62,715 bases of DNA, taken from NCBI GenBank assembly GCA_021790195.1, contig JAJYIF010000020.1:1-62715 (forward strand), given 5' to 3'. The notes beneath the pieces were generated by a model that saw only the letters and a program-made list of their open reading frames with translations, was not told the DNA's origin and ran no database searches. A program made the position numbers and the translations under genes. The stretch comes from Nitrospirota bacterium (GTDB taxonomy: Bacteria; Nitrospirota; Thermodesulfovibrionia; Thermodesulfovibrionales; UBA9159). Position 1 is the first letter of the stretch. Every line of letters begins with the position of its first letter. Of the stretch, positions 11,856 to 58,459 are shown one piece after another.

Positions 11856-11860
11856 AGCGC

Positions 11861-12826
11861 TTACTGACTGATATACTTGAGTGCGAGAAAGATGATGGCT
11901 GCCCCGAGAAGTAACTTGATGACCCTCTGGGGCATAAATTTTTGTAAGCGCGCTCCAAAGTAGACCCCTATTATGCCTCCGATGCCGAACAATGCGCCGA
12001 GTAGCCAATCCGGCGACGCAGCCGTCCCGGAGCCGGCGGGAACCACGCTGTAAAAGGTGACGCCTGCGATAGAGGTGATAAAGGTACCCATGAGCGCCGC
12101 CCCTGCGATCGTATATACGGGCAAGTGAAATACGGCCACACAGAAGGGAGCTATAATGGCGCCGCCGCCTATGCCGTATGTACCGCCGATGATACCGACG
12201 ATAAAGGCGAGCATGAACATGCCGATAGTGCTATAAGAAAACCTTTCGCCCCAGAATTCATACTCTATCTTCGTGAACGAAACAGAGACAGTCTTAACTA
12301 CTGCCTCTTTCGGAAGCCCCGATGCCAGTCTCGATCTCTGTCGCTGTCTGATCTCTTCCGCCCTCTCCCGGAACTTTATCTCGAGCGCGTTTGTGCCTTC
12401 GTTTCTTAATCGGGATTTCCCGCTGAATTCGTATAAGAGTCTGCCGCCGATATACAGCAATACGCATCCCACGAATAATTTGAACATCCCGGGATCCGGA
12501 AGGTATCGGACCCTTATGTAGTAACCGATGAAGACCCCGGGCAGGGTTCCCATTATAACTACCCATGTCAGGGGCCATGCCATCCGTCCCTCCTTTATGT
12601 AGCGGTAAACGCCGCCCGGAATAGCCACTATGTTGAAGATAAAGTTGGTCCCGCTCACCGAAGGATTTGTGTAATTGAGGACGCTCATCTGAAAAGGCAG
12701 GAGGAGAAAAGCCCCGGAAACGCCGCCCATGGACGTGAAAAAAGAGATCGCCATCGCTACAAGAGGGGGCAGGAGGATGCTTGTCTTTACTCCAGAAACG
12801 GGAAAGACGTATTCAAGAAATTCCAT
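11861..12826 (-). CDS. TSUP (TauE/SafE) family membrane transporter
   Basis: A 321-residue integral membrane protein with two homologous membrane halves separated by a basic cytoplasmic loop (about 130-175). Glycine-rich GTYGIGGGAIIAPF in the second half and FTSMGGVSGAFLLLPF in the first are typical of the TauE/SafE sulfite/organosulfur exporter family. Substrates in this family include sulfite, sulfoacetate and sulfolactate, and the sequence alone does not choose between them. Its 3' end lies only five bases from that of the convergent sensor kinase, with no terminator between them. Confidence 0.85.
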   Translation of the reverse strand: MEFLEYVFPVSGVKTSILLPPLVAMAISFFTSMGGVSGAFLLLPFQMSVLNYTNPSVSGTNFIFNIVAIPGGVYRYIKEGRMAWPLTWVVIMGTLPGVFIGYYIRVRYLPDPGMFKLFVGCVLLYIGGRLLYEFSGKSRLRNEGTNALEIKFRERAEEIRQRQRSRLASGLPKEAVVKTVSVSFTKIEYEFWGERFSYSTIGMFMLAFIVGIIGGTYGIGGGAIIAPFCVAVFHLPVYTIAGAALMGTFITSIAGVTFYSVVPAGSGTAASPDWLLGALFGIGGIIGVYFGARLQKFMPQRVIKLLLGAAIIFLALKYISQ

Positions 12827-30294: not shown

Positions 30295-31467
30295 TTACAA
30301 GAAGGTCTCTCTCATGACTTCTCCCATCCTGCCGATCCCCTCCTCGATCTTCTCGATCGAAGCATTGGAGAAGTTAAGCCTTATGGTATTCTCGCCCGAG
30401 CCGTCCGGAAAGAACTCCTGCCCCGGAACAAAGGCGACATTCCTCCGGAGGCAGCGGTCGAGCAGTCTTCTTGCGTCTTCGCCCTCGGGCAACTTGACCC
30501 ATAAAAACATGCCGCCTGAAGGACAGTTCCAGGTCACGGCCTCAGGGAAATGTCTTTTCATTGCAGAGAGCATGCAGTCTCTGCGAAGCGCGTACATCTT
30601 TCGCAGGTTCTCGATATGCGTGAAATACTTGCCGCTCTCGAGATATTCATCGACGAGGTACTGCCCTATCGTATTGGTCTGGAGGTCGGTGCCCTGCTTT
30701 ATAATGACAAGCTTGCTGATGATCTCTTCGTCCGCCAATACGTATGCCACCCTGAGGCCCGGCGCCACGGTCTTCGAAAAGCTGCTCATGTATATGAAGT
30801 TCCTCGACCCGCCGAGAGCAAAAAGCGAAGGGAGTCTTTCGCCTTTGAAAAGAAGCTCTCCGTATGGGTCGTCTTCTATCACTATCAGATCGTGACTGCT
30901 CACGATCTCGATCAGCTTGCGGCGGCGCTCAAGAGACAGGGAGCTGCCGGAGGGGTTCTGAAAATTCGGCATGAGATAGAGAAGGGCCGGTCTCTTCCGA
31001 CGCAGTCTTTCCAGAAGGTCGTTCGGTCGAATGCCGTTTTCGTCCGAAGCTATAGGAACGATGTCCCCCCGGAAGAGCTGAAAAGATTGAAGTGCGCCGA
31101 GATAGCTGGGATTCTCGGTGAAGATAACCGATCCCTTGTCGATGAAGAGCTTAGACAGCAAGTCGAGGCCCTGCTGTGAACCCTGAGTGATGAGGACATT
31201 GTCCGCGCCGATAGTCCCTGTATCGGAGTGAAATCCTGACGCGATCTTTTCCCTCAGCGGAAGGATGCCCTCAGTGATCGAATATTGGAGGACGGTCGAG
31301 CCGTATTTCAGAAACAACTTCTGGGCCGCATCAGAGATATCTTTTACAGGGAAGAGCTCCGGGGCCGGCAGTCCTCCCGCGAACGAAATTACCTCAGGCC
31401 GCGCAGTGATCTTCAGGATCTCGCGGATTGCCGAGCTCTTAAGTCCGGCCACTCTTTCGGCATACAT
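30295..31467 (-). CDS. PLP-dependent aminotransferase (2-aminoadipate/aromatic, LysN-like)
   Basis: A 390-residue fold-type I aminotransferase starting MYAERVAGLKSSAIREILK, with FAGGLPAPELFP at the N-terminus, cofactor-binding residues in YLMPNFQNPSG and DDPYGELLF, and the Schiff-base lysine in SSFSKTVAPGLRVAY. This set matches the LysN/MocR-related group that acts on 2-aminoadipate, aromatic or branched-chain amino acids. The ATG is preceded by GGAGG. It appears monocistronic. The 230 bases downstream to the small Cys-rich gene show nothing definite. Confidence 0.9.
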   Translation of the reverse strand: MYAERVAGLKSSAIREILKITARPEVISFAGGLPAPELFPVKDISDAAQKLFLKYGSTVLQYSITEGILPLREKIASGFHSDTGTIGADNVLITQGSQQGLDLLSKLFIDKGSVIFTENPSYLGALQSFQLFRGDIVPIASDENGIRPNDLLERLRRKRPALLYLMPNFQNPSGSSLSLERRRKLIEIVSSHDLIVIEDDPYGELLFKGERLPSLFALGGSRNFIYMSSFSKTVAPGLRVAYVLADEEIISKLVIIKQGTDLQTNTIGQYLVDEYLESGKYFTHIENLRKMYALRRDCMLSAMKRHFPEAVTWNCPSGGMFLWVKLPEGEDARRLLDRCLRRNVAFVPGQEFFPDGSGENTIRLNFSNASIEKIEEGIGRMGEVMRETFL

Positions 31468-31719: not shown

Positions 31720-33900
31720 TCAGTTTTTCTTCTTCTCCCAGGTCAGATAATTATGGCAGTAAGTGCACGAAGCACCTAAAGCGCCCCTGTGAGGGTCTTT
31801 GTGACAATCTTTGCAGTTGTCGTGTTTCAGGTTCTTGAACTGGGCCGTAGCGAGCGCGGCGTCCTTTGGACGGGGCTGGTGACAATCGACGCACTTGACG
31901 TTCTTGTGTTTGCCTTCGAGTTTGTATTTAGAGTCGCGGTCGTGTTCGAATATCAGGTCCTTGCCCTTCCAACCGTTCATCGTATGGCACGACTTGCATT
32001 TATCGCCCAGCTCCGACCTGTGCGGGTCCTTGTGGCAGTCCCTGCATAACTCATGTTTTAAGCTCTTGAACAAGGCGGTGTCAAGCGCGGCTCCCTTTGG
32101 ACGTGGCTGGTGGCACTCGACGCATTTAACGCTCTTGTGCTTGCCTTCAAGCTTGAATTTCGAGTCCCGGTCATGTTCGAAAAGAAGGTCTTTCCCTTTC
32201 CAGCTGTTCATGTTGTGACATGTCTTACACTTTTCTCCCGGGATTTCCGCCTTATGATTTACCTTGTGGCAGTCGTCGCACTTGTCGAACTTAAGGCTTT
32301 TGAACAGGGCAGTGGCGAGCGCAGCTCCCTTTGGACGCGGCTGGTGGCATTCGGTACATTTCAGAGTCCTGTGCTTGCCTTCGAGTTTGTATTTGGAGTC
32401 CCGGTCGTGGTCGAAAAGAACATCTTTGCCCTTCCAGCTGTTCATGTTGTGGCATGTCTTGCACTTGTCACCGGGGATTTCGGCCTTGTGCGGGACTTTG
32501 TTATGGCAGTCTCCACACTGGTCGTATCTAAGGTTTTTAAAGAGCGCGGTGGCGAGGGCGGCGTCCTTGGGGCGCGGCTGGTGGCAATCCACGCACTTCA
32601 ATGTCCTGTGCTTGCCCTCGAGACGGAACTTCGAATCTCTGTCATGATCGAACTTAAGGTCTTTGCCTTTCCATCCGGCCACCGAATGGCAGGTGGTGCA
32701 TTTATCGCCGAGCTCTGACCTGTGCGGGTCCTTGTGGCAGTCGGTGCAGACGTCGTGCTTGATTCCTATATAGAACCCCTGGTCTTGTCCGTTAGACCAT
32801 CTCCTGTGGCACTTGTCGCACTTGACCTCCCGGTGTTTGCCTTCGAGCTTGAAGTCGGCGAGATTGTGGTCGAATTTCTCCCGGTCGAGCTTGATGATAT
32901 TGCCGACGAGTCCCGGGTGTTCCTTGTGACATTTTCTGCAGGGCCCCTTGTTCTTCCCATGATACCCTATGGCGCCTTCTTTCCTCTGCTGGATTATATT
33001 ATGGCACTTTAGGCATTTGTCGTCCTTGATCTCTCCTGTAAGGGCGTGGCATTTATCGCACTTGTCGATTGCTTTTATCTGATGGGCCTTCGAGAGATCG
33101 TTCGGGGCGATAAGGGCGTCGAAACCCCTTGCCAGAGAGGCCCTTCTGGCCGCGTTGAAGATCTTCAGGCCCGTAAAGCCCAGGACGAAGGTGAGCACCA
33201 GGATGATGATCTCGATCTTCATGAAAGATCCGCCGAGGGCGTGGGCCTTCTGGGTCTCTTCTTGCTCTGTCTGAGGCAGCGTCAGGCTGTGATGATGGAC
33301 GATATAATAATCAGGGACCCAGCCGTGGAAGATACCGCCGAGGCCTACGCGGGTCGAGGGGTTCAGGAAAGACAAGTAAAGATGCCCGCCAACGCTCGTC
33401 GCGGCCATAAAGAAGAGGGCCGCGTGAAAATACCAGGAGATGAGGATCGTGCCGTAAAACCACATGACGAGCCCGCTGGCCGGAAATAACACGGCATAAA
33501 CTACTACCAGTATGCTGTTGATCTTCTGGCCCGTATTGAATTTCGCGGCGGGGGGAGGCTGGAGTTCGGGATGGTAAAGTGACCTGAAGGCGATTATCAT
33601 CCATTTTATGTCTTCCACGCCCAAGCTGAATATCTGCCTCAGGTTCCTGAAATTCAGTCTGGGGCCGAAAAATATAAAGGCGCCTGCGAGGGCAAGCGGC
33701 CAAATTATACCGGTAGTCTTATGCACGGTGCGGAGCACGTTAAATAAAGAGGCATTGTAGTGCAGGAACCGGTAGGCTATTATCAATCCGCCCGTGCAAA
33801 GGAGCGTGACAAAAGGCACTGCATTTGCCCAATGAAGGACCAGCTCCGTCGCTTCGAATCTCTTCAGTAGTTTGTTGTCTTTTTCCGTTGAATCACCCAT
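31720..33900 (-). CDS. Cytochrome b561 fused to an 18-haem c-type domain
   Basis: A 726-residue fusion. Residues about 20-210 form a four-helix cytochrome b561 (b-haem histidines in VLHWANA, TVHKTTG, WYFHAALF and GGHLYLSF). A fifth membrane helix lies at about 227-247. The rest is a c-type cytochrome region with 18 CXXCH motifs. Residues 401-711 consist of four tandem modules of 77-79 residues, each with three CXXCH and the shared core WKGKD, HDRDSK, LEGKH and CHQPRPK. It probably passes electrons between the quinone pool and a periplasmic or extracellular acceptor. No porin, partner cytochrome or reductase gene adjoins it. Confidence 0.9.
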   Translation of the reverse strand: MGDSTEKDNKLLKRFEATELVLHWANAVPFVTLLCTGGLIIAYRFLHYNASLFNVLRTVHKTTGIIWPLALAGAFIFFGPRLNFRNLRQIFSLGVEDIKWMIIAFRSLYHPELQPPPAAKFNTGQKINSILVVVYAVLFPASGLVMWFYGTILISWYFHAALFFMAATSVGGHLYLSFLNPSTRVGLGGIFHGWVPDYYIVHHHSLTLPQTEQEETQKAHALGGSFMKIEIIILVLTFVLGFTGLKIFNAARRASLARGFDALIAPNDLSKAHQIKAIDKCDKCHALTGEIKDDKCLKCHNIIQQRKEGAIGYHGKNKGPCRKCHKEHPGLVGNIIKLDREKFDHNLADFKLEGKHREVKCDKCHRRWSNGQDQGFYIGIKHDVCTDCHKDPHRSELGDKCTTCHSVAGWKGKDLKFDHDRDSKFRLEGKHRTLKCVDCHQPRPKDAALATALFKNLRYDQCGDCHNKVPHKAEIPGDKCKTCHNMNSWKGKDVLFDHDRDSKYKLEGKHRTLKCTECHQPRPKGAALATALFKSLKFDKCDDCHKVNHKAEIPGEKCKTCHNMNSWKGKDLLFEHDRDSKFKLEGKHKSVKCVECHQPRPKGAALDTALFKSLKHELCRDCHKDPHRSELGDKCKSCHTMNGWKGKDLIFEHDRDSKYKLEGKHKNVKCVDCHQPRPKDAALATAQFKNLKHDNCKDCHKDPHRGALGASCTYCHNYLTWEKKKN
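31768..32700 (-). repeat. Four tandem ~235-bp tri-haem modules in the cytochrome gene
   Basis: Four consecutive units of 79, 78, 77 and 77 codons encode C-x2-CH ... WKGKD ... F(D/E)HDRDSK ... LEGKH ... KC-x2-CHQPRPK ... C-x2-CHK. Adjacent copies are close at the protein level (for example CKTCHNMNSWKGKD occurs in modules 2 and 3). The array ends with one extra CXXCH (CTYCHN). This indicates recent unit duplication with possible copy-number variation. Confidence 0.9.
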
Positions 33901-34069: not shown

Positions 34070-35443
34070 TTATCTTAGCACAAACAGTACTTTTTTTCCG
34101 GAGGCAAACAGCTGTCCTGATATTGTCTTTGCAAACGCAGAGAGCGTCTCGTCCCTCGCTCCGAAGATAACGTATGTATCCCATTGACCGGCACGGGCCA
34201 GTATGTCATCTCTCGTTCTCGCGGCTTCTACGGATCTTCCTGCTGCCTTGATCCCTTCTGCAAGGTCGAGGCTCGATATGTCTTTGCTCGCCGTGCCTCC
34301 GGCGTAGAAGATCGGCAGAAGGATGAGATGATCGCGGTCGCGCAAATGTTTGACGAATGTTTTGATATATTCGCTCTTCATCATCCTCGTGGGACCGAAA
34401 CCGTGGGGCTGAAATATGTAGCATATTTTCTCTCTGATAGGGGAGACGGTTTCCATCAGCGCTGAGATCTTGTGGGGGTTGTGGGCATAATCGTCGATGA
34501 CGAGGTGCTTGCCGTCGTCGAGGACTATATCGAAGCGTCTCTCTATCCCCTCGAATTCGTGCAGCACGGACGCAATCCCTGCAAGCGGTATGTTCATCAT
34601 ATTGAGTGTCGCTATGCATGAAAGAGCGTTTGAGAGATTGTGTCTGCCCGGGAGAGAAAGTCGGAAGGCGGTTCCGCCCACCGAAAAATGCGTTTTGAAG
34701 GGACCGTAAACCACGTCTTCAGCCCTGAAGTCGGATGGGCTGTTCATGGAAAATGTGACCGCGTCTGAAATGCCGAGCTCTTTCAGGTTATCGTCGTCTC
34801 GGTTCAGAACGATGCGTCCGGATGTGTTTTGAATAAGTCGCCGGAACATACCGGCAGTGGTATCTACAGGGTGATGATCGAAATCGAGATTGAGTATGAC
34901 GGAATGAAGCGGTTTATAATTCACTATGCTGCCGTCCGACTCGCACGCCTCCATTACAAGATGCCGCGAGCGACCCGACAGAGAGTTGCCGGGGTCCCGG
35001 GCATCATGGAATTGTTTTACCCGCCCGCCGCCTATGAAATTGGGGGCCAGCCCAAGCCTTTCCATCAGGAAGGCGAGCATTCCCGAGGTTGTTGATTTCC
35101 CGCTGGTCCCTGCAACCAAAATCGTCTCGAAGTCTCTCACGATATCGGCCAGCAATTCCGGGCGTGTCCTGGCGGGTACGCCGATTTCCCTTGCCCTGGC
35201 GACTTCGGGTCTATCGGGTTCGACGGCTGCGCTAAAGACCGCAAGGTCAAAGGAAGCGTCTATGCCGTTTCCGTCCTGAGGGACGAGAGATATTCTCTTG
35301 GAACGCAAAAGGCCGGCCACGGGGTGTGACGGGTCCTGGTCGAACGCGCGGTCGGAGCCGGCGACGGTATGGCCTTTATCTGACATAAAGCAGGCGAGGG
35401 CGGACATCCCGCTGCCGCCGATGCCCGAAAAAAAGATCTTCAT
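34070..35443 (-). CDS. mpl: MurC/Mpl-like Mur ligase family protein
   Basis: A 457-residue Mur ligase with an N-terminal nucleotide-binding motif FFSGIGGSGMSALA, ATP-binding AGTSGKSTTSG, central HLVMEACESDGS and C-terminal YAHNPHKISALMETV. UDP-MurNAc-binding ligases of this group are MurC and Mpl; the stand-alone location, away from other mur genes, favours Mpl, which re-uses tripeptide from cell-wall recycling, but a MurC-like paralogue is possible. ATG at 35443 begins at the family's usual start; an in-frame GTG at 35458 is the alternative (adds SKRL). AAGAGG precedes the ATG closely. Confidence 0.75.
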   Translation of the reverse strand: MKIFFSGIGGSGMSALACFMSDKGHTVAGSDRAFDQDPSHPVAGLLRSKRISLVPQDGNGIDASFDLAVFSAAVEPDRPEVARAREIGVPARTRPELLADIVRDFETILVAGTSGKSTTSGMLAFLMERLGLAPNFIGGGRVKQFHDARDPGNSLSGRSRHLVMEACESDGSIVNYKPLHSVILNLDFDHHPVDTTAGMFRRLIQNTSGRIVLNRDDDNLKELGISDAVTFSMNSPSDFRAEDVVYGPFKTHFSVGGTAFRLSLPGRHNLSNALSCIATLNMMNIPLAGIASVLHEFEGIERRFDIVLDDGKHLVIDDYAHNPHKISALMETVSPIREKICYIFQPHGFGPTRMMKSEYIKTFVKHLRDRDHLILLPIFYAGGTASKDISSLDLAEGIKAAGRSVEAARTRDDILARAGQWDTYVIFGARDETLSAFAKTISGQLFASGKKVLFVLR

Positions 35444-35560
35444 AAGCCTCTTTGACACGTCATATTATAGCAGCAGCGTTGCGGTAAATGTGCTGCAACT
35501 TCGCAGGGACCGTGATAGAATTAAGTTGGTGTATAAGGCTCAACCGACAGGGGTGGTCAA

Positions 35561-38500
35561 CTGGGAACTAAGCAGAAACTTCAGTATCTCTCACTTGTAA
35601 CGGTAATCCTCATCGGCGTTGCTCTTTCTTTTGCCGCGTTCACAGCTGCGTTGAAATCGGAGCGTGGCAAGATCTTATTTGAGTTCGAACATGGCGCTGA
35701 GGACAGATATGACGCATTGAGGAGAGAGATCGATTCTGACCTCTATGCCCTGGAGTCGATAGTCGCACTTTATGCCGCCTCGGAGGATGTCACGCGCGCC
35801 GAGTTCCGAGCTTTTGCAAGACGTTTGCTGCTCGGGAACGAAAGTATTCAGGCCCTCGAATGGATACCCCGCGTGACAGACGCTCAGAGGCACGCATATG
35901 AGGAGGCCGCAAGGAAGGACGGCTTCCCTGATTTCCGGATAACCGATCGTTTGTCTCAGGGAAAGATGATACGGTCCCCGCGTCTCAAGGAATATTATCC
36001 GGTATATTTTGTTGAACCCTACAAGGGCAACGAGGCCGCACTCGGTTTTGACCTCGCTTCAAATCCTGCCCGAAAGAAAGCCCTCGAAAGGTCGCGCGAT
36101 ACCGGAGAGACTTTATCGACCGGCCGCGTAGTGCTGGTGCAGAACGGCAAGATCGGCTTTCTGGTCTTTGATCCGGTATATAGACACGGTTCTCCGGGAA
36201 CAACCGTGCAGTCCCGGCGCAAGTATCTCGAAGGCTTTACACTCGGAGTTTTTAGAGTCGGAGACCTTGTAGAGAGGGCCTTCTCTTATATAAAGCCGGA
36301 GGGCATTTATACCTATGTCTACGACAAGTCTGCGCCCGTGGATGAAAGCTTCCTCTATTTTCATCCCCCGCGTACTGGGCGGACGAATGCCGAGCCGCCA
36401 GGCAGGGAGAGCATCGATGCGAAGAAGAACATTCTATTTGAGAAGACGCTCAAAGTGGCCGGAAGAGAATGGCTGATACAATGCCTGCCGTCGTCGGAAT
36501 ACATTGCAGAAAGAAAGACGTGGGAGCCCTGGGGAATCCTTTTGTCGGGACTCTTTTTTACGTGCCTTATAGCCGGCTTTATGATCTCAGGCATCAGGCA
36601 GGCAAGGAGTCTTTCTGATGCCAATCAGCGGTTATTGAATGAAATCACTGTGCGGAAACGGGCGCAGGAGATACTCGCGCGGAGCGAGGAGAGGTTCCGG
36701 AAGGTATTTGAAAAAGGTCCCGTGGGGATGCTCATGGTAGGGCCGGACCTTAAACTCGTAAAGGCAAACAGGTTTTTTTGCGAGATGATGGGATATAGCG
36801 AGGAGGAGCTAATAGGCCGGGTCATTAAAGACATAACTTTTCCTGACGACTTAGAGGAGAGTGAGAGAATGGCCGTGCGGCTCATCGGGGGAGAAATCCC
36901 GAACTTCCGGATCGAGAAGAGGTATGTCAGGAGGAATGGAGAGATCATCTGGGCCACCCTGACGGCAACGGTCATTCATACCGACGAAGGCGGCATGCTC
37001 TACGGCTTGGGGATGATCGAAGACATCAGTGAGCGAAAGAAGGCCGGGGAAGCCCTGCGCAGCAGCGAGGAGAGGTACCACTCCCTCTTTGAAAACATGC
37101 TCGAAGGATATGCCTATTGCAGGATGATTTTTGAGCATGACCTTCCTCAGGACTTTGTATATCTGGATGTCAACAGGTCGTTCGAGGGATTGACGGGATT
37201 GAAGGATGTGGTTGGTAAGAAGGTCAGCGAGGTAATTCCGGGCATAAGAGAGACATCTCCTGAGCTGTTGGAGACGTACGGCAGGGTTGCGCTGACCGGC
37301 AAACCCGAGAGGTTCGAGATATTTATCGGGTCACTCGGCATCTGGTTTTCGATTTCCGTTTACAGCACGGAAAAAGATCACTTTGTCGCGGTCTTCGACA
37401 ACATCACCGAGCGGAAGCAGCGCGAGAGGGAAATGAAGGCCATTTGTGACGTGAGCTCTGCCATGAGGGCCGCCCGCACGAGGGATGAGATGCTGCCTGT
37501 GATACTTGCCGAGGTAGTCAACATACTAAAGATGGAGGGAGCGGCCCTTGCCATGCGCGATACGGCCACGGGAGAGACTGTGATCGAGCTCGGCAGGAAA
37601 GACTGGGCGAGCTCGACAGGCCTTCGCCTTCCGCCGGGCGAGGGCATTGTGGGGCAAGTGATCTCGACAGGCAATGCATACGTGCACGATGATGTTCTCA
37701 GCGACCCTAACCTGAGCAGGCCGGACCTGATAGGGGACCTTTCCTGCATCGCCTGTGTTCCTCTCGTCTCGGAGGAGCAAATCATCGGGGCTCTCGTGGT
37801 GGGCCGCAGGACCCCGATTGTCAGTGAAGAGGTGAGACTTCTCACGGCCATAGGAGAGATTGCCGCAAACGCTATCCACAGGTCGACACTCCATGAGCAG
37901 ACCGAGCAACACCTGAAGAGGCTTTACGCCCTTCACGACATCGATTTGGCTATCTCTTCGAGCCTCGATCTGAGACTGACACTCAACATCTTCCTCCCTC
38001 ACGTCAAGACGCAGCTGGGTGTGGATGCGGCGGCTGTGCTGCTTCTCAACCCATATACGCAGACCCTGGAGTACGGGGCCGGCCTCGGGTTCCGCTCGCG
38101 GTCCGTCGAAGAGACGAGGATCAGATTGGGTGAGGATCACGCGGGCCTTGCGGCACTGGAGCGCCGGACCATAATCATTCCGGATGTCCTTGGAAAGACA
38201 GAGATGTGCGAGCACGCGAGAGGCCTTGAGGCAGACGCCTTTGTTTCTCACCATGTCGTTCCCCTTATCGTCAAGGGCCATGTGAAGGGCGTCCTCGAAG
38301 TCTTTCATCGTTCCCCTATCTATCCGGACAGGTCGTGGATGGATTATTTCGAGTCCCTTGCAGCGCAGGCGGCGATAGCGATAGACAATGCGTACCTCTT
38401 TAACGATCTGCAGCGCTCGAATGTCGAGCTTTTTCTTGCCTATGACGCCACTATTGAAGGCTGGTCCAGGGCGCTCGATATGCGGGACAGGGAGACCGAA

Positions 38501-39004
38501 GGCCATTCCCAGCGTGTCACCGGCATTACCGTGAAGATCGCCAGGGTCATGGGGATGGACGAGGCCGAGCTTGTCCATGTGAGGAGGGGGGCGCTGCTTC
38601 ATGATATCGGAAAGATGGGGATCCCGGACAGCATTCTTCTGAAGCCGGGGAAACTCGATGACGAAGAGTGGAAGGTTATGCGGCTGCATCCCGTTTATTC
38701 GCACCAACTGTTATCACCCATAGCTTTCCTGCAGCCGGCCCTCGATATCCCTTATTGTCACCACGAGAAGTGGGACGGCAGCGGCTATCCGCGCGGGTTG
38801 AAGGGAGAGAGCATTCCGCTTGGAGCGCGCATTTTTGCGGTAGTGGATGTATGGGACGCCCTGGCGTCCGACAGGCCGTACCGTCCTGCGTGGCCCAGGG
38901 AAAAGATCGTGGAGTATGTAAAGAATGAGGCCGGAAGGCATTTCGACCCGAAAGTGGTAGAGACATTTCTCAATCTGTACGATGAAAAGGAGATACAGGC
39001 GTAG
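35561..39004 (+). CDS. CHASE-PAS-PAS-GAF-GAF-HD-GYP sensor c-di-GMP phosphodiesterase
   Basis: A roughly 1147-residue membrane sensor. An N-terminal membrane helix (YLSLVTVILIGVALSFAAF) is followed by an extracytoplasmic CHASE domain, a second helix (GILLSGLFFTCLIAGFMISG), two PAS domains, two GAF domains and a C-terminal HD-GYP domain (HDIGKMGIPD, HHEKWDGSGYPRGLKG, DVWDAL). HD-GYP enzymes hydrolyse c-di-GMP. The frame contains no ATG, GTG or TTG upstream of TTG 35651, which would delete the first membrane helix. CTG at 35561 follows AGGGGTGG by four bases and keeps the helix, so I prefer it. It is transcribed divergently from the Mur ligase gene. Confidence 0.85.
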   Translation: MGTKQKLQYLSLVTVILIGVALSFAAFTAALKSERGKILFEFEHGAEDRYDALRREIDSDLYALESIVALYAASEDVTRAEFRAFARRLLLGNESIQALEWIPRVTDAQRHAYEEAARKDGFPDFRITDRLSQGKMIRSPRLKEYYPVYFVEPYKGNEAALGFDLASNPARKKALERSRDTGETLSTGRVVLVQNGKIGFLVFDPVYRHGSPGTTVQSRRKYLEGFTLGVFRVGDLVERAFSYIKPEGIYTYVYDKSAPVDESFLYFHPPRTGRTNAEPPGRESIDAKKNILFEKTLKVAGREWLIQCLPSSEYIAERKTWEPWGILLSGLFFTCLIAGFMISGIRQARSLSDANQRLLNEITVRKRAQEILARSEERFRKVFEKGPVGMLMVGPDLKLVKANRFFCEMMGYSEEELIGRVIKDITFPDDLEESERMAVRLIGGEIPNFRIEKRYVRRNGEIIWATLTATVIHTDEGGMLYGLGMIEDISERKKAGEALRSSEERYHSLFENMLEGYAYCRMIFEHDLPQDFVYLDVNRSFEGLTGLKDVVGKKVSEVIPGIRETSPELLETYGRVALTGKPERFEIFIGSLGIWFSISVYSTEKDHFVAVFDNITERKQREREMKAICDVSSAMRAARTRDEMLPVILAEVVNILKMEGAALAMRDTATGETVIELGRKDWASSTGLRLPPGEGIVGQVISTGNAYVHDDVLSDPNLSRPDLIGDLSCIACVPLVSEEQIIGALVVGRRTPIVSEEVRLLTAIGEIAANAIHRSTLHEQTEQHLKRLYALHDIDLAISSSLDLRLTLNIFLPHVKTQLGVDAAAVLLLNPYTQTLEYGAGLGFRSRSVEETRIRLGEDHAGLAALERRTIIIPDVLGKTEMCEHARGLEADAFVSHHVVPLIVKGHVKGVLEVFHRSPIYPDRSWMDYFESLAAQAAIAIDNAYLFNDLQRSNVELFLAYDATIEGWSRALDMRDRETEGHSQRVTGITVKIARVMGMDEAELVHVRRGALLHDIGKMGIPDSILLKPGKLDDEEWKVMRLHPVYSHQLLSPIAFLQPALDIPYCHHEKWDGSGYPRGLKGESIPLGARIFAVVDVWDALASDRPYRPAWPREKIVEYVKNEAGRHFDPKVVETFLNLYDEKEIQA

Positions 39005-40285: not shown

Positions 40286-40630
40286 ATGGGGAGCGATGTC
40301 CTTAAAGAGGTGATAGCGGCAGAGGCCGAGATACAGAGAAGCCTCGAGTCCGAAATAAAGGCGGCCGCTGACAGAATCGAAAAGATCAAAAGAGAGGTCG
40401 AACAGGAGATCGAGCGCGAGAAAGAAAGGATCGGGGAGTCCTGTGCCCTGATGCTCAAGGAGACGGAAAGGGAGGCGGAAGGCAGGGCCGCCAGTGTTGT
40501 TGCCGAAGCCTCTGAGAGGGCCGGCAATATCAGGGGGCTTAGCGGGGACGCCGTGAGGGAGGCGGTCCTGAGACATTTATGCCGCATACTGCCTGGAGAG
40601 GGCCGTGATAGTCAGGATGTCGAAGGTTGA
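40286..40630 (+). CDS. ntpF: V/A-type ATPase peripheral stalk subunit (H/G-like)
   Basis: A 114-residue, almost wholly helical, charged protein (repeating E/K/R-rich coiled coil over residues 8-85) at the head of the ATPase operon. Size, composition and position match the H (AhaH/NtpF-type) peripheral stalk subunit that pairs with subunit E. Its end overlaps the start of subunit I by 26 bases. The family is weakly conserved, so the call leans on context. Confidence 0.75.
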   Translation: MGSDVLKEVIAAEAEIQRSLESEIKAAADRIEKIKREVEQEIEREKERIGESCALMLKETEREAEGRAASVVAEASERAGNIRGLSGDAVREAVLRHLCRILPGEGRDSQDVEG

Positions 40631-42482
40631 GATCGTCGGACCAAAGGGCATGCTCCGGGAGGTGCTCGGTTTCCTGCGCGACCGGGGGATAATGCAGATC
40701 GAACCCGTCTTCAAAGGGTTTATAGAAAAGGAGGACGAGGAGCACATCCGTTCTTTCCTGCCGGACGAAAAGACACTCGGCGAACGGCTCTTTCTTGAAG
40801 ACCTGATTCGCAAGATCGATGAGCTCTCTTCGTATGTTCAAGAGGCCCCGGTAAGGACGATCTACATCGATCCCCTGTCGATACTTGATACCGTGGCCAC
40901 GACAATCGACAGACACATTGCCGGATGCAAGGAGCTCTTTGAAAGAAAAGAGAAGCTTGAAGGAGAAGCTTCCGAGCTCCATCGGTACCGCCTTTTTCTT
41001 AATGCCCTTGCCTCTCTTTTCAGGACTGCCGAGAGAACTCCCGACCTGGATTTCATAGGCCTGACCATAAAAGAACCCGGGATGGTGGGACGTGTCAGGA
41101 CGCTGCTTTCGCAGATAACGGACTGGGAGTTCGATCTGCTGACCGAGACGGCCGAGGACGGGACACTCGTCGGATTGATAACCATAGAAAAGAGCATGTC
41201 CGGCAAGGTCAAGAAGTCCTTGAGCAACGAACATATTCCCGAACTGACGTTTCCGCCTTCCTTCGAAGACCTGAGCTTCGCCGAAAAGATCGTTTACGTG
41301 CAGAAGAGGATTTCTCTTGTCTTATCCGAGAAGGAAGAGATAAACCGTAAGCTGGAGAGATTTGCTCACCGGTGGATGCCGATCTATACAAGAGTGAAGG
41401 AATGGTCGGAAGAGAGACTTTCGCTTTTGAGGACGGCCGCTTCGGTATTCGAGACGAGGATGTGTTTCTTTATCAACGGCTGGATTCCTTCCGGTGAGCT
41501 CGAAAAGGCCGGAAAGGACCTCGCGGATGTCTTTCGCGGAGAGGTTGCGGTCGAGGAGAAGGGGATATTCGAGGAGGACCTTGTCAGGGTCCCGGTCATC
41601 CTGAAGAACCCGCCTTATTTCAGGCCCTTCGAGCTGCTGGTGAGGTTCCTGCCGCTGCCACGCTACTCTTCCTTCGATCCCACGCCGTTCATAGGGATAT
41701 TCTTTCCGGTCTTCTTCGGCATGATTCTCGGCGACGCCGGATACGGCCTTTTGCTGGCAGGGCTGTCCCTGGTCATGAAAAGGAGGCTCCGCAAGAGAAA
41801 GGAGCTGAGGGACGCCTTTACGATATTGCTTATATGCTCGGTTTATGCGATCTTCTTCGGCATACTATACGGAGAATTCTTCGGCGAGCTCGGCAGCACG
41901 CTCTTCGGTCTCGCGCCGGTCTTCATCGAGAGGCGCAGCGCCATTAAGCCGATGATCCTGTTTTCTCTCTCCGTGGGCGTAGTCCATATTATCCTGGGTC
42001 TTACGATGGGGCTTGTGGCCGCGCTCAGAAGAAAAAGCAGGAGAGAGGCACTTTACAAGATCTCGATGATACTCATCACTGTCTGCATGATCGCTCTATT
42101 CGCATCGTTCTTCGAGGTCTTTCCGGGTCTTCTGGCGAGGCCGCTCATTATCGCCATACTCGTGCTCTCTCCATTTCTGTTTTTTTCGGGCGGTCTGCTT
42201 GCGCCACTCGAGCTTCTGAAGAGCATCGGGAATATTATCTCATATGTGAGGATCATGGCCATCGGACTCACATCCGTGCTCCTTGCATTTGCGGCAAACC
42301 GCATAGCCGGCATGACGGGCGACATTGTGATCGGCATAGTGGTCGCCAGCCTGCTCCATATTATAAATATCATCCTGGGTGTTTTTTCTCCTGCCATTCA
42401 TTCCCTGAGATTGCACTATGTGGAATTCTTCAGCAAGTTCCTTGAGCACGGCGGCAGGAGGTTTGAACCCCTGAGAAAGTAG
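40605..42482 (+). CDS. ntpI: V/A-type ATPase subunit I (subunit a)
   Basis: A 625-residue subunit with a cytoplasmic N-terminal half (long helices, dispersed coiled coil) and a C-terminal membrane half of about seven helices beginning at FFPVFFGMILGDAGYGLLL. The segment near NIISYVRIMAIGLTSVLLAFAANRIA carries the arginine that faces the rotor ring. It conducts ions at the interface with subunit K. GTG at 40605 follows GGAGAGGGCC; the ATG at 40617 is a second possible start. Confidence 0.93.
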   Translation: MIVRMSKVEIVGPKGMLREVLGFLRDRGIMQIEPVFKGFIEKEDEEHIRSFLPDEKTLGERLFLEDLIRKIDELSSYVQEAPVRTIYIDPLSILDTVATTIDRHIAGCKELFERKEKLEGEASELHRYRLFLNALASLFRTAERTPDLDFIGLTIKEPGMVGRVRTLLSQITDWEFDLLTETAEDGTLVGLITIEKSMSGKVKKSLSNEHIPELTFPPSFEDLSFAEKIVYVQKRISLVLSEKEEINRKLERFAHRWMPIYTRVKEWSEERLSLLRTAASVFETRMCFFINGWIPSGELEKAGKDLADVFRGEVAVEEKGIFEEDLVRVPVILKNPPYFRPFELLVRFLPLPRYSSFDPTPFIGIFFPVFFGMILGDAGYGLLLAGLSLVMKRRLRKRKELRDAFTILLICSVYAIFFGILYGEFFGELGSTLFGLAPVFIERRSAIKPMILFSLSVGVVHIILGLTMGLVAALRRKSRREALYKISMILITVCMIALFASFFEVFPGLLARPLIIAILVLSPFLFFSGGLLAPLELLKSIGNIISYVRIMAIGLTSVLLAFAANRIAGMTGDIVIGIVVASLLHIINIILGVFSPAIHSLRLHYVEFFSKFLEHGGRRFEPLRK

Positions 42483-42495
42483 GAAAGGAGGAGAC

Positions 42496-42714
42496 ATGGA
42501 AAAGGTATTGACATCTCTCGCGGCGGCCCTTGCCATAGGTCTCTCCGCCCTGGCAACCGCATGGGCGCAGTCGAGGATCGGGGCGGCGGGGGCGGGGACC
42601 CTGGCAGAAAAACCGGAACTGACCGGGACGGTCATTATCCTCGTCGCTATCCCGGAGACAATGGTGATACTCGGTTTCGTCGTGGCGTCGATGATCCTCT
42701 TTACGCTCAAATAG
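42496..42714 (+). CDS. ntpK: V/A-type ATPase subunit K (rotor ring)
   Basis: A 72-residue two-helix proteolipid. Helix 1 contains AWAQSRIGAAGAG and helix 2 contains the ion-carrying Glu54 in VAIPETMVILG. Gln25 in helix 1 and Thr55 next to Glu54 match residues associated with Na+ binding in some c/K rings, but this is not decisive. The loop is AEKPEL. The short two-helix form, not the duplicated four-helix form of Enterococcus, is present. AGGAAAGGAGGAG precedes the ATG, as expected for a subunit needed in many copies. Confidence 0.92.
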   Translation: MEKVLTSLAAALAIGLSALATAWAQSRIGAAGAGTLAEKPELTGTVIILVAIPETMVILGFVVASMILFTLK

Positions 42715-42715
42715 A

Positions 42716-43282
42716 ATGGGTCGCAGCGAACTCATCGAGGCCCTGCGCAGAGAAGGCGAAGAGAAGAGGCGGTCCATCCGTCGTCAGGCGGAGGAAGAGG
42801 CGGACAGAATCAGGAGGAATGCCGCCGAAGAAATAGAACGGTTAAGGCAGGAGTTGAGAGACCTTCAAGCCGCCGCAGTCAGAGAAAGGTGTGATGCTTT
42901 ACTTTCGGAAGCCCGCAGGAAGGCGCGGATGCTCCTTCTTGCTGCGCACGAGGAGTTGTCGGAGCGGCTCCGGCGGGAGGCGTTCGGGAGTCTCGACCGC
43001 CTGAGAGAAGGAAGTTATGCGGACGTCTTTCGCGGACTCGTAGCGGAGCTGCCGGCTTATAGATGGCAGGTTGTGACGGTCAATCCCGAGGATGAGGAGA
43101 TGGCGAAGGGATATTTCCCGGAGGCGGAGATCATATCGGACAGCGGTATTTCCGGAGGTCTGGACGTTGCAGAAAAGGGAGGGGCGGTCCGCATTGTGAA
43201 CACCTTCGAAAAACGGCTTGAAAATTTATGGGAGGACTTTCTCCCGGAGTTGATCAGGGATGTCTGCGAGAAGACGGGCTGA
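42716..43282 (+). CDS. ntpE: V/A-type ATPase subunit E (peripheral stalk)
   Basis: A 188-residue protein with an N-terminal charged coiled coil (about 1-90) and a globular C-terminal domain (YRWQVVTVNPEDEEM, ISGGLDVAEKGGAVRIVNTFEKRL) typical of subunit E. With the H-like subunit it forms the stator stalk that holds the A3B3 head. It begins one base after the subunit K stop. Confidence 0.88.
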   Translation: MGRSELIEALRREGEEKRRSIRRQAEEEADRIRRNAAEEIERLRQELRDLQAAAVRERCDALLSEARRKARMLLLAAHEELSERLRREAFGSLDRLREGSYADVFRGLVAELPAYRWQVVTVNPEDEEMAKGYFPEAEIISDSGISGGLDVAEKGGAVRIVNTFEKRLENLWEDFLPELIRDVCEKTG

Positions 43283-44243
43283 AATGGAGCTTTTGAGAAA
43301 AGTCGGGGAAGGCGAGTATCCGACCGATTATCTCCTTTCTAGGATAAGGGCGAGGAGGACTTTGATGATCACTGACTGGAGACGCCTTCTCCTTGGCGAA
43401 CCCATTCGGGACCTGGTTCTCTTCCGATACGGCCCTGTGCCGGACGAGGACCCGGAAGCGGTCTGGAGGTTTCTTTTGAAGGAATTCGGTTCGGTTTACT
43501 TCCAGATGAACAAAGACCTGCGCTCCTTTTTTGCTCCCTTTTTTCTTTACGCGGAACTCAGGACCGTTTATATCTGTCTCAGATACGCCAAAGGAGGACA
43601 GGGCGGAAAGGCCGGGAGGCTCCTCTCTTTCAGTCTCCTTTCCGGAAAAATCAGGGAGATCCTTGGGGGCGGATGGGAGCTGCCTTTAATAGTCGATAGG
43701 CTTGGGGAGCTGCTGTCGCAGCTTTCGAAGGGCTTGGGAGGCCTCGGGACTATCCTTGAAAAAAGGGGTCTGCGCGGATTAGAACAGCGGGTCACAACTG
43801 CCTATCTCGAATATGTGGTTCATTCCGGCCTTGATCCGCTCATGAAAGAGTTTTTCGTCTCCATAATCGATTCGAGGAATGTCCTATCCCTTTACAAATA
43901 TATCAGGTCAAGGGGAAAGACTGCCCCTCAGTTCATAGAGGGCGGCAGAATAACGGAAAAGATATATACAGGCATAGCGGTAAAGAGTGACGGCTCCGCT
44001 TTAGAGCATCTTCTTCTCAGACTTACAGGGGTCCGGATTGAAGACCAAGGAATTGCGACGGTTGAGAGTTCTCTTTACAAAATGACGACGCGATTACTGA
44101 GAAGGGCCGGAAGGGAACCCTTGTGCGCCGGAGTGATACTCGATTATCTCTGGAGATGTTCGCTCGAAGCTAGGAACCTCAGCGTTCTTCTTTACGGAAG
44201 CGGTATTGAGAAGGAAGTGCTTGCAGCCGAGATAGTCCAATGA
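43260..44243 (+). CDS. ntpC: V/A-type ATPase subunit C (d-like)
   Basis: A 327-residue, mostly helical protein of the vATP-synthase AC39/subunit C family, which caps the K ring and connects it to the central shaft. ATG at 43260 lies inside the subunit E gene; ATG at 43284 (MELLRKVGEGEYPTDYLLSR), directly after the E stop, is an equally good start. It overlaps the F subunit gene by 4 bases. Confidence 0.85.
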   Translation: MSARRRAEMELLRKVGEGEYPTDYLLSRIRARRTLMITDWRRLLLGEPIRDLVLFRYGPVPDEDPEAVWRFLLKEFGSVYFQMNKDLRSFFAPFFLYAELRTVYICLRYAKGGQGGKAGRLLSFSLLSGKIREILGGGWELPLIVDRLGELLSQLSKGLGGLGTILEKRGLRGLEQRVTTAYLEYVVHSGLDPLMKEFFVSIIDSRNVLSLYKYIRSRGKTAPQFIEGGRITEKIYTGIAVKSDGSALEHLLLRLTGVRIEDQGIATVESSLYKMTTRLLRRAGREPLCAGVILDYLWRCSLEARNLSVLLYGSGIEKEVLAAEIVQ

Positions 44244-44560
44244 AAAAGGTTGCGTTCATTACTACTTCGGATGCTGAATTCGGGTTCAGTCTGGCAGGCG
44301 TGATACAGCGTATCTCGCGCGGGGAAGACGCTTTAGAGCTTCTGAAGGAGCTGACGTCCCGGCCCGAGATAGGGCTCGTAGTTCTCGATGAGCGATTAAT
44401 AGAAGGCATAACGGAGGAGAAACTCCGGGAGATCGAGCAACAATGGCATGGGATCCTGCTCGTTCTTCCGGCGCCTGAAAGGCCTGCGGTCCCTGCCGAG
44501 GATTATATTCAACGGATGATTCAGAGGGCCATAGGATATCATGTGAGGCTGCAGCTATGA
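44240..44560 (+). CDS. ntpG: V/A-type ATPase subunit F
   Basis: A 106-residue Rossmann-like protein starting MKKVAFITTSDAEFGFSLAGV, with GLVVLDERLIEGI and LVLPAPE, the layout of subunit F in the central shaft. It overlaps subunits C and A by 4 bases at both ends. Confidence 0.9.
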   Translation: MKKVAFITTSDAEFGFSLAGVIQRISRGEDALELLKELTSRPEIGLVVLDERLIEGITEEKLREIEQQWHGILLVLPAPERPAVPAEDYIQRMIQRAIGYHVRLQL

Positions 44561-46164
44561 CCGGGAAGGTGGTGGGGATATCGGGGTCGACCGTATACGT
44601 CGATCTGAAGGGACTGAAACTCCTCGAAAGGGTTTATGTGGGTCATCGTATGCTCGCCGGAGAGGTTGTGCGGCTCGACGGGGAGAGGGCCATAGTCCAG
44701 GTTTATGAGGACACGCGGGGGCTCGGCATGAATGAGCCGGTGAAGGCTGGCGGCGCTCCCCTTACGGTGAGGCTTGGGCCGGGACTTCTCTCCGGAATGT
44801 TCGACGGACTGCAAAGACCTCTCGAGAAGTTAAGAGACGAGACGGGACCCTTTATCAGGATCGGAAAAGATATGCGCGCTCTCGACTGCTCAGCCGTGAG
44901 ACGCTTTGTCCCTCTGAAGAGAAAGGGTGACGAAGTCGCTCCAGGAGAGAATATCGGTTTTGTGGAAGAAGGCGCTTTCAGACATTTTATAGCCGCAGGC
45001 GGCCGATCGCAGAAGAGGCTCTCGTGGACTGCCGACGGAGAGATCAGTCTGGAGGGGCCGGTCGGAGTGTTTGAGGACGGCGAAATAATCACGGCCTGCA
45101 GCGAATGGCCTGTGAGGGTTCAGAGGCCTTGCAGGCGGAGGCTTCCGGTCTCCGGGCCTATCGTTACGGGTCAGAGGAGCATCGATTTTCTTTTCCCGCT
45201 TGCAAGGGGAGGGACGGCGGTCCTGCCCGGCGGGTTCGGGACGGGAAAGACTATCCTGGAGCAATCTATCGCCAAGCTCGCGGACGCCGACATTGTGGTT
45301 TATGTGGGTTGCGGCGAGCGGGGCAATGAGATGGCGGAGATGATCGAGGAATTTCTGGACCTGAAAGACCACTGGACCGGCAGGCCGCTGATGGAGCGCA
45401 CGATACTCGTTGTGAACACCTCGAACATGCCCGTTGCGGCGAGAGAGGCATCCATATATACAGCTGTGACCATGGCGGAATATTACAGGGACATGGGTTA
45501 TCACGTGCTCTTTCTCGCCGACAGTCTGTCCAGGTGGGCCGAGGCACTGAGGGAGATATCCTCTTCTCTTGAGGAGATGCCGGGAGAAGAAGGGTATCCC
45601 ACGTATCTCGCATCGAGGCTGTCAAGTTTCATCCAGAGGGCTGGGGTGGTGGAGACATTGAGCGGTGCGACAGGCTCGCTCAGCATGGTCCTTTCCGTTT
45701 CGCCCCCCGGGGCCGACTTTACCGAACCGGTCACGCAGGCCTGCCTTCGGGCCGGGGGAGCGTTTCTCATGCTCGACACGTCTCTGGCCCACAAAAGACA
45801 CTTCCCCGCGATAAACTGGTTCCAAAGTTACTCCCTTTACTCGAAGGATACAATCGAAGTCTACATTGAGAAGGTGTCCGCCCGATGGGGGACTTTAATG
45901 CAGCGCTGCAGGGAGCTCTTGCAAAAAGAACAGACGCTTCTTGAGGTCTCCGAGATTGTCGGCATTGAGGGACTTCAGGATGCAGACAGGCTTGTCATGC
46001 GGGTGGCCGGTATGATCAGGACCGAGTTTCTGGCGCAAAACGCGTATACGGAGGACGCCTTTTCTCCCCCGGAAAAGACCTGTGCAGTTATCACGAGAAT
46101 CCTGGACTACTACGACGACGCATCCGGGAGGTTGAAGCAGGGCAAGGGACTCGAAGAGATATGA
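44557..46164 (+). CDS. ntpA: V/A-type ATPase catalytic subunit A
   Basis: A 535-residue catalytic subunit with Walker A GGFGTGKTI (about residues 228-236), VYVGCGERGNEMAEMIEEF (catalytic Glu) and LADSLSRWAEALREISS (Walker B/arginine region). The A-specific non-homologous insert (about 110-200) is present. At 535 residues it is shorter than the common 575-600, mostly from a compact C-terminal domain. It makes or hydrolyses ATP in the A3B3 head. Confidence 0.95.
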   Translation: MTGKVVGISGSTVYVDLKGLKLLERVYVGHRMLAGEVVRLDGERAIVQVYEDTRGLGMNEPVKAGGAPLTVRLGPGLLSGMFDGLQRPLEKLRDETGPFIRIGKDMRALDCSAVRRFVPLKRKGDEVAPGENIGFVEEGAFRHFIAAGGRSQKRLSWTADGEISLEGPVGVFEDGEIITACSEWPVRVQRPCRRRLPVSGPIVTGQRSIDFLFPLARGGTAVLPGGFGTGKTILEQSIAKLADADIVVYVGCGERGNEMAEMIEEFLDLKDHWTGRPLMERTILVVNTSNMPVAAREASIYTAVTMAEYYRDMGYHVLFLADSLSRWAEALREISSSLEEMPGEEGYPTYLASRLSSFIQRAGVVETLSGATGSLSMVLSVSPPGADFTEPVTQACLRAGGAFLMLDTSLAHKRHFPAINWFQSYSLYSKDTIEVYIEKVSARWGTLMQRCRELLQKEQTLLEVSEIVGIEGLQDADRLVMRVAGMIRTEFLAQNAYTEDAFSPPEKTCAVITRILDYYDDASGRLKQGKGLEEI

Positions 46165-47522
46165 GACTTTCGGAGCACAGATACCGCACCATTTCCTCAC
46201 TGGAAGGCCCGCTGCTCTTTGTGAGAGAGGTTTTTGCAGCGAGGATCGGAGAGGTCATAAGGATAGTTGCTCCTGACGGCAGGGAGCTGGCCGGAGAGGT
46301 CCTGAGAATAGAGGGGGAGACGGTCCTCGTGGAGGTTTATGGAGAGACGCGCGGTCTGGACGCGGAGTCGACATCGGTCATATTCACCGACGCCCTGAGA
46401 AGCGCCCCTCTATCTAGTGAGCTTCTCGGCAGGACGTTTAACGGTTCGTTCAGGCCGATAGACGGCGCGCCGATGTTCGTTCCTGAAAAAAGGTCGCCCA
46501 TCGGCGGTTGTCCGATCAATCCGTCTGCGAGGGCGCGGCCCCAGGAATTCATTGAAACCGGGTTCTCCGTGATCGACGGTCTGAATACGCTTGTGAAAGG
46601 ACAGAAGCTGCCGGTCTTTTCCTGCGCCGGGCTTCCTTCAAAAGAGCTTGTCGCCGGAATTCTCAGAAACGCGCGGACCGTGTCGGCTTCGGGTTCGGGA
46701 CATCCCTTGTTGCCGGGCGCGGAAGCCGCTTTCGTAGTCGTCTTCTGCGCCGTTGGGGTTACGTTTCAGGAGTATCATTTCTACATGAAGGTACTCGAAG
46801 AAATCAGGACCGGGTTCGTAGCCTTCGTGAACATGGCGGATGATCCGGTCATGGAAAGGCTTCTTGCCCCGAGGTTCGGGCTGACGGCGGCCGAATTCCT
46901 GGCATTCGGCTGCGGGATGGACGTCCTTGTGGTCATGACCGACATGACGAATTACTGCGACGCCCTGCGGGAGATATCCACGGCGCGTGAGGAACTGCCG
47001 GGAAGAAGGGGTTATCCCGGCTATATGTATTCCGACCTGGCTTCTCTGTATGAGCGGGCAGGCAGGATAAGGGGGATGAAGGGCTCGGTCACTCTTCTGC
47101 CGGTGGTGACTATGCCCGAGGACGATATCACTCATCCCATCCCGGACCTTACGGGTTATATTACGGAGGGCCAGCTCGTAATGAGCCGTGAGCTTCACCA
47201 GATGAACATCTTTCCTCCGGTAGACGTGCTGCCGAGCCTCTCGAGGCTTATGCAAAAAGGCATAGGAGAGGGCCGGACGAGAAGAGACCACAGGGAGATA
47301 TCGAACAGTCTTTACAGGCTATACGCAAAGGGAAGGGACCTCAGGAAGATCGAGGCGATTGTCGGCAGGGACGGAATGACAAAGGGAGACGTCCTGATGC
47401 TCGACTTTGCGGACGCCTTTGAAAGGGAATTTGTCAATCAGGGGACGAGGGGCAGGACCATAGATGAAACGCTCGATCTCGGCGCAGCTGTTCTCAAGAG
47501 GTTCCAGTCGGGGAAGGCATGA
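46161..47522 (+). CDS. ntpB: V/A-type ATPase regulatory subunit B
   Basis: A 453-residue non-catalytic nucleotide-binding subunit with FIETGFSVIDGLNTLVKGQKLPVF, where the P-loop is degenerate (CAGLPSKEL), and with DMTNYCDALREIS and YPGYMYSDLASLYERAGRI. It contributes the arginine finger at the A/B interface. It overlaps subunits A and D by 4 bases. Confidence 0.95.
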   Translation: MRLSEHRYRTISSLEGPLLFVREVFAARIGEVIRIVAPDGRELAGEVLRIEGETVLVEVYGETRGLDAESTSVIFTDALRSAPLSSELLGRTFNGSFRPIDGAPMFVPEKRSPIGGCPINPSARARPQEFIETGFSVIDGLNTLVKGQKLPVFSCAGLPSKELVAGILRNARTVSASGSGHPLLPGAEAAFVVVFCAVGVTFQEYHFYMKVLEEIRTGFVAFVNMADDPVMERLLAPRFGLTAAEFLAFGCGMDVLVVMTDMTNYCDALREISTAREELPGRRGYPGYMYSDLASLYERAGRIRGMKGSVTLLPVVTMPEDDITHPIPDLTGYITEGQLVMSRELHQMNIFPPVDVLPSLSRLMQKGIGEGRTRRDHREISNSLYRLYAKGRDLRKIEAIVGRDGMTKGDVLMLDFADAFEREFVNQGTRGRTIDETLDLGAAVLKRFQSGKA

Positions 47523-48196
47523 TACACCCGACGAGGACAAACCTCTTTCTGTTAAAGGAAAAGGCCAGGGCCGTCTCCGGCAGTGCAGGGATACTGAAGG
47601 CGAGGAGACAGGCGCTTATAAGGGAGTTTTTGGAGACGAGCCGGCCCTTTCTCAGATCGAGAGAAGAGATCAGGAACACTTACGGGAACGCCCTCCGGGA
47701 GCTCGCGCTCAGTCTCGGACACGAGGGAAGGGACGCTGTCGGTTCCGTAGCTGCCGCGGCAGCGAGGGATTTCGCGATCGATATTGCTGAGAAGAGTATA
47801 TGGGGGCTTAAATATAAAGACATATCGGTGGCCGAAGGACCGGTGAGGGCGCCCGAGGAAAGGGGATACGATTATCTTTCGACTACACCCCACCTCGATG
47901 AGTGCATTTACCGCTTTGAAAAACTGCTCGAATCGATGATAGATAACGCGGAGTTTGAAAGCAAATTAAAGCGGCTCGGCGCCGAGATACTTAAAACGAC
48001 AAGGAAGATAAGGGTGCTCGAAGAAATCGTGGCTCCGGATCTCAGACGCAAAATCAGGGGCATCACTCAATTCATCTCTGAGCGGGACAGAGAGTCATAT
48101 TATCGTCTTAAGAGGTTTAAGAAGAAGGCGCGGAGACAGATTCACAGGTCCCTGACAAATTTGCCGAGTCTCGATAGCTCCGATCTCAGTTCCTGA
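47519..48196 (+). CDS. ntpD: V/A-type ATPase subunit D (central shaft)
   Basis: A 225-residue antiparallel coiled-coil protein ([21 protein letters not shown] at the start) with helices at both ends, the rotor shaft inside the A3B3 head. It is the last gene of the ATPase operon. Its final 55 bases overlap the 3' end of the convergent hybrid kinase gene, so the two mRNAs would be complementary there. Confidence 0.93.
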
Positions 48197-57746: not shown

Positions 57747-57758
57747 AGGTGGGGAAAG

Positions 57759-58358: not shown

Positions 58359-58423
58359 AAAGGACTCGATACTGATGTTCGCAGTCGGATTGCGGGAACG
58401 GCGATGCTCCACCTGCAATAGGC

Positions 58424-58440: not shown

Positions 58441-58459
58441 GAAAAAGGAGGAATTTTGA

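Follow-up and report, generated by a model that had tools for sequence, protein, structure and literature searches.

The gene studied here lies on contig JAJYIF010000020.1 of a Nitrospirota bacterium, the whole stretch of 62,715 nucleotides being referred to as the window. It raises the question of whether a quinone-reactive b-type cytochrome and a long chain of c-type haems are carried by a single polypeptide, and what such a protein would do between the quinone pool and the cell envelope.

Domain architecture of the protein

The gene is one uninterrupted frame of 726 residues (Table 1), starting with ATG and delimited exactly as in an earlier, sequence-only reading; the purine-rich stretch GGAGCAAGAGG, resembling a ribosome-binding site, stands directly upstream of the start. 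The claim of that reading that a b-type quinone domain and c-type haems share a single chain was borne out by the open frame, by 18 CxxCH motifs at residues 281–712 (the haem part covering residues 281–716) and by Pfam matches, all above their cut-offs, to Ni_hydr_CYTB (residues 15–181) and, over the remainder, to Cytochrome_C7, Cytochrom_CIII and Cytochrom_c3_2. No other frame longer than 60 residues with a CxxCH motif was found in the whole 62.7 kb window. A four-helix dihaem b domain is thus followed by a fifth membrane helix and then by the 18 motifs, hydropathy and the model giving five membrane helices in total.

Table 1 Features of the gene and its immediate neighbours in the window
Feature	Residues	Position	Strand	Basis
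Whole gene: b-type cytochrome domain and 18-haem c-type arm	726 aa	31720..33900	(-)	frame, motif count, Pfam
Dihaem b domain, FdnI-like; His 23, 60, 159, 173; quinone loop FNTGQK at 121–126	15–180	33361..33858	(-)	PF01292, 12-sequence alignment, 1kqf_C profile and Foldseek matches
Fifth membrane helix	220–258 in model	33127..33243	(-)	hydropathy, AF2 helix, comparison with L040/L046-type proteins
Leading haem triplet (spacing 15, 25)	CxxCH 281, 296, 321	32926..33060	(-)	motif scan, comparison with relatives
Tri-haem module 1; haems 361, 385, 401	338–412	32665..32889	(-)	repeat comparison, module tree
Tri-haem module 2; haems 436, 462, 480	413–491	32428..32664	(-)	repeat comparison, module tree
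Tri-haem module 3; haems 515, 541, 558	492–569	32194..32427	(-)	repeat comparison, module tree
Tri-haem module 4; haems 593, 619, 635	570–646	31963..32193	(-)	repeat comparison, module tree
Tri-haem module 5; haems 670, 696, 712	647–726	31723..31962	(-)	repeat comparison, module tree
Class I/II aminotransferase (neighbour outside the system)		30295..31467	(-)	annotation
Mur ligase (neighbour outside the system)		34070..35458	(-)	annotation

Membrane part

The b domain is, as judged from sequence and fold comparison, a relative of FdnI—the gamma subunit of formate dehydrogenase-N—retaining the full set of four haem-ligand histidines together with the motif of the quinone loop. It scores 43.2 bits with PF01292 (threshold 30.1), and a profile built from 12 b domains, fused as well as separate, matched one sequence in the PDB, the FdnI of Escherichia coli (1kqf_C, E = 4.6e-19). 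The same chain was the only significant fold match found by Foldseek (probability 1.00, TMt 0.72) with the AlphaFold model, whose pLDDT for this domain is mostly 75–95. Exactly four histidines are invariant across the 12 aligned b domains (H23, H60, H159 and H173), and they align with H18, H57, H155 and H169 of FdnI, which are taken here to be the b-haem ligands in the 1KQF structure; N122-T-G124-Q-K126 matches the FdnI loop N110-A-G112-Q-K, presumably part of the menaquinone site. The score with the FdnI equivalog model TIGR01583 is 56 bits, below the cut-off of 115.85, and there are no formate dehydrogenase genes among the annotated neighbours.

Concerning the fifth helix, it corresponds to the signal or anchor segment of stand-alone haem relatives. 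Both termini of FdnI are cytoplasmic, and therefore this helix would carry the haem arm to the periplasm; basic residues follow it, so that an outside location is not favoured by the positive-inside rule, a small mark against a periplasmic arm.

Haem arm and its repeats

The arm consists of a divergent leading triplet, conserved in both fused and stand-alone relatives, and five c7-like tri-haem modules. The four tandem modules of 77–79 residues recognised in the sequence-only reading do exist—they are the last four, modules 2–5—but the total is five, with the triplet in addition. The modules match PF14522 at 77.6 bits, as tandem units with c7-like spacing. In 59 aligned two-module segments, three further histidines per module are invariant besides those of the CxxCH motifs, which fits bis-histidine ligation, and the top match of a two-module profile in the PDB was the Geobacter protein GSU1996 (3ov0_A, E = 2.1e-15). 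In the AlphaFold model, built without haem, the arm has a pLDDT mostly below 60; a haem-free two-module model with a pLDDT of 78 gave no match in fold searches by Foldseek or VIA, as may be expected without haem. In a plasmid collection the arm was matched in part only.

The modules had also been thought to be recently duplicated, and this did not hold for the window gene. Modules 2–5 share 62–82% of their amino acids and 67–75% of their nucleotides, about a third to a half of their fourfold sites agree (e.g. 7 of 21), and the longest exact repeat among the modules is 26 bp; the modules are therefore old. Since the repeats have diverged enough, and with no Ns in the window, their collapse in the short-read assembly is unlikely. 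The worry about repeat number does apply to a paralogue in the same genome (L002, C18:113207-115290, 60% identity), where exact repeats of 127–140 bp and a 10-N scaffold gap occur within the array, and for which, as far as the assembled sequence tells, recent module duplication is supported. Similar assembly trouble is seen in Nitrospirae GWC2_42_7, with N runs in one of its fused genes (L036) and a third copy apparently split across contigs C15 and C173. In the module tree, module 1 joins module 1 of other genomes (86/89), whereas the inner modules tend to cluster within their own gene, which suggests that each lineage multiplied or homogenised them on its own.

Fused, split and stand-alone relatives

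The search for the same architecture elsewhere, proposed with the sequence-only reading, was successful. Fused relatives come from Nitrospirae GWC2_42_7 (L035, with 18 haems and 56% identity, and L036, with 16 visible haems and a gap), from a Verrucomicrobia MAG (L037, 23 haems) and from a Deltaproteobacteria MAG (L038, 22 haems). Within the same phylum, of which 396 genomes were sampled, the b part and the arm were found in one frame at E ≤ 1e-20 in the own genome only. It should be added that in L037 (8564-12637) the first 470 or so positions of DUF6079 lead in frame into the b domain and the 23-haem arm, which is either a real fusion or an assembly join, and that a Deltaproteobacteria MAG (L039:9962-13096) has 44 CxxCH motifs in a 1045-residue frame with a leading triplet like that of the window gene.

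In further relatives the two halves are separate genes side by side. In L047 the b frame (9911-10618) overlaps a 16-haem frame (10552-12066), and in three loci of the same class (L150, L151 and L152) the b gene and the haem gene are separate but adjacent. These overlapping and neighbouring pairs, together with the fused genes, argue that the b domain and the haem arm act together, the gene pairs being the main evidence for their putative joint working. In L150, the b gene and a 42-haem gene flank a gene for a protein with a SPOR domain, a barrel-like part and a C-terminal aromatic residue, and a relative of this protein is encoded beside a b gene in L155/L156; the label barrel-like is a reading of the sequence in L150 and L155, Pfam giving at most a weak porin match. 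An Alginate_exp barrel gene follows the fused gene of L037. The haem arm also occurs without the b domain, in a large set of genomes of Bacteroidota, Acidobacteria and others. In the b-domain tree, fused and split sequences part at one fork (86/96); the tree is weak and unrooted, and is compatible with one b/c fusion event or with several.

A separate observation concerns a conserved run of genes in Bacteroidota (L048:7527-16169 and L058:7754-15409), which starts with a small membrane protein and an anchored protein with FAD/4Fe-4S pyridine-nucleotide oxidoreductase domains, and continues with a 20-haem protein, a 28–39-haem protein and a barrel-like protein with a C-terminal aromatic residue; judged by its gene content, the run may encode an electron route across the envelope that is linked to NAD(P)H.

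Neighbourhood and genomic background

Beyond the two genes flanking the window gene, the annotated neighbours (Memo, a sensor protein, FBPase and a V/A-type ATPase) are likewise unrelated, and the absence of a nearby porin or partner reductase gene, noted earlier, was confirmed among them. The window also carries a CHASE-PAS-GAF-HD signalling protein (35651-39004), divergent from the Mur ligase gene and upstream of FBPase, a V/A-type ATPase operon (40605-48196) and NuoF/NuoG-like subunits of an NADH dehydrogenase or hydrogenase-diaphorase (55407-60475). The MtrB family (PF11854) was absent from the own genome by search, although an unrelated type of barrel may be encoded elsewhere in it; the barrel-like protein of L155 had no match there in a search run without a positive control.

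The same genome encodes menaquinone genes of the futalosine pathway, ResB and CcsA for haem-c assembly, LpxC and many multihaem proteins, several of them near or above 2000 residues, and some of its other b561 genes adjoin molybdopterin oxidoreductases on contigs C52 and C13. Four of its frames (L190:4481-11353, L192:4766-11638, L187:1-6136 and L193:7861-13405) span about 1850–2290 residues with 23–31 CxxCH motifs. Two of them, L187 and L193, stop at contig ends with identical last residues (GLISLNAWTLIA), so that contigs C13 and C16 are probably interrupted within a repeat common to both. On contig C33 (L191:6428-12362), 26-haem and 16-haem paired-CXXCH proteins accompany a PpiC-type isomerase and an NHL-repeat protein, an arrangement which we take to be reminiscent of clusters for extracellular cytochrome filaments; L191:10617-12362, considered as a barrel, was rejected, since it is the PpiC-type isomerase.

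Proposed function

Based on the above results, the protein is probably an inner-membrane oxidoreductase between quinone and periplasmic cytochromes, made as one chain and serving as a functional counterpart of CbcL with the domain order reversed. In the N-terminal FdnI-type domain, two b haems would span the membrane and menaquinone would be bound on its cytoplasmic side; helix 5 would lead to the periplasm and place the arm there, with 18 bis-histidine c haems, mostly in tri-haem modules like those of c7 and GSU1996; and the arm would store electrons and pass them to, or receive them from, other multihaem cytochromes. The topology, haem loading, quinone type, partners and direction are inferred. 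The single open frame with its upstream sequence, the relation to FdnI, the conserved ligands, the GSU1996 match, the fused and split relatives, and the menaquinone, haem-c assembly, LpxC and multihaem genes all speak for this reading; the poor prediction of the arm without haem, the basic residues after helix 5, Met227 at the start of that helix and the lack of an adjacent partner gene speak against it.

Met227 matters because the c part might also be made separately from it, as an anchored 18-haem protein beside a free b domain. It precedes the signal- or anchor-like helix, a methionine at this position is shared by the paralogue, L035 and L038, and stand-alone haem relatives begin at about this point; with no clear ribosome site before it, no such methionine in L036 and a plausible site at the main ATG, an internal start is nevertheless improbable. 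The direction of transfer is a different matter. Quinol oxidation had been assumed at the outset, but an FdnI-type quinone loop fits either direction. In formate dehydrogenase-N this site reduces quinone on the cytoplasmic face of the membrane and conserves energy through the uptake of protons there, so that quinone reduction by the window protein would conserve energy likewise. Electrons from periplasmic or extracellular donors, such as Fe(II) or partner cells, might then be delivered to menaquinone, a rival on direction but not on architecture. Members of the CbcL/MtoC family occur in Fe(III) reducers as well as in Fe(II) oxidizers, and nothing in them marks the direction (PMC6295460), and Cytbc, with the identical domain order, has been proposed for Fe(II) oxidation (PMC5566968); against this, CbcL, with a comparable set of centres, acts as a quinol oxidase in Geobacter (PMC9129911), and a gene for Fe(II) oxidation was not identified next to the window gene. 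Transfer from quinol to the periplasm is tentatively favoured, the reverse being possible but less likely.

As for the destination of the electrons, the arm could be a capacitor on the quinone pool that feeds periplasmic reductases and takes no part in extracellular transfer, in keeping with GSU1996, to which the modules are closest among solved structures, being regarded as a periplasmic capacitor (PMC10138318), and with no outer-membrane gene adjoining the window gene. The barrel-like genes beside split relatives (L150 and L155), the Alginate_exp barrel gene of L037 and the wealth of multihaem proteins in the own genome tell against such a store, which we consider rather unlikely. At the other extreme, the sequence-only reading had seen in the long arm, with no partner gene nearby, a self-contained conduit from quinol to the outside, one chain linking inner membrane, periplasm and cell exterior. 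This is hardly credible any longer: the sequence shows neither a barrel nor any other segment of outer-membrane type, related loci carry a barrel-like protein as a separate gene, adjoining the gene pairs in some of them, and multihaem proteins are numerous elsewhere in the genome.

The preferred reading, an oxidoreductase of quinone and periplasmic cytochromes, can be extended, speculatively, to a quinone-anchored wire of adjustable length that would span the periplasm to an outer-membrane partner in place of soluble shuttles and would grow or shrink as tri-haem modules are gained or lost; the basis for this is the 18, 22 and 23 haems of fused relatives and the recent module copies in the paralogue. 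With the quinone site and the 18-haem arm on one chain, the protein would moreover offer a compact means of following electron flow through a wire whose modules are countable.

Comparison with known systems

The sequence-only reading had held a fusion of b-type and multihaem parts to be unknown, which is not the case, both the CbcL/MtrH/MtoC and the Cytbc fusions having been published (PMC6295460, PMC5566968). The CbcL/MtrH/MtoC family, with 3–23 c haems in 15 phyla and usually six transmembrane helices (four or five in a few members; PMC6295460), means that neither the idea of a fusion nor even a haem number such as this is new. A published description of a b-first, c7-modular form with 18 haems was not found in the literature searched, of which the coverage was partial, and among 297 sampled genomes of the L038 phylum no recognisable CbcL was found, although b domains and haem arms were.

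The protein resembles CbcL/MtrH/MtoC in joining a HydC/FdnI-like dihaem b domain to a multihaem c domain in one quinone-linked, inner-membrane chain. CbcL itself, with nine c haems and required for low-potential acceptors in Geobacter (PMC9129911), has its haems N-terminal and six helices C-terminal, whereas here the b domain comes in front, with five helices in total, and the c7-modular arm of 18 haems is twice as long. Because the haem part of that family is N-terminal, the window protein, set apart by the published description, is not filed as a member. Closer in order is Cytbc of the Gallionellaceae in culture KS, which, compared by description, has an N-terminal b561 domain and C-terminal c haems and is likewise proposed to be quinone-active, yet carries two c haems (PMC5566968) as opposed to 18 CxxCH motifs. 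The dodecahaem ‘nanowire’ GSU1996 (PDB 3OV0) shares the tandem c7-type tri-haem domains, four in number, but is soluble and periplasmic, has no b domain and contains one His-Met haem per domain, unlike the modules here with their three invariant extra histidines. FdnI (PDB 1KQF, chain C) shares the fold, the four ligand histidines and the quinone loop, but works with the FdnG and FdnH subunits, the place of which is taken here by a fused c arm. The stand-alone multihaem relatives of Bacteroidota, Acidobacteria, Nitrospirota and others (about 16–44 haems, about 30–45% identity) have the leading triplet and the tri-haem units, but their chain lacks a b domain. Quinone modules of the same kind are thus found fused to multihaem wires with the CbcL order inverted, and the side-by-side genes for both halves in relatives may serve, in Nitrospirae and others, as a marker for a little-described route linking the quinone pool with envelope cytochromes.
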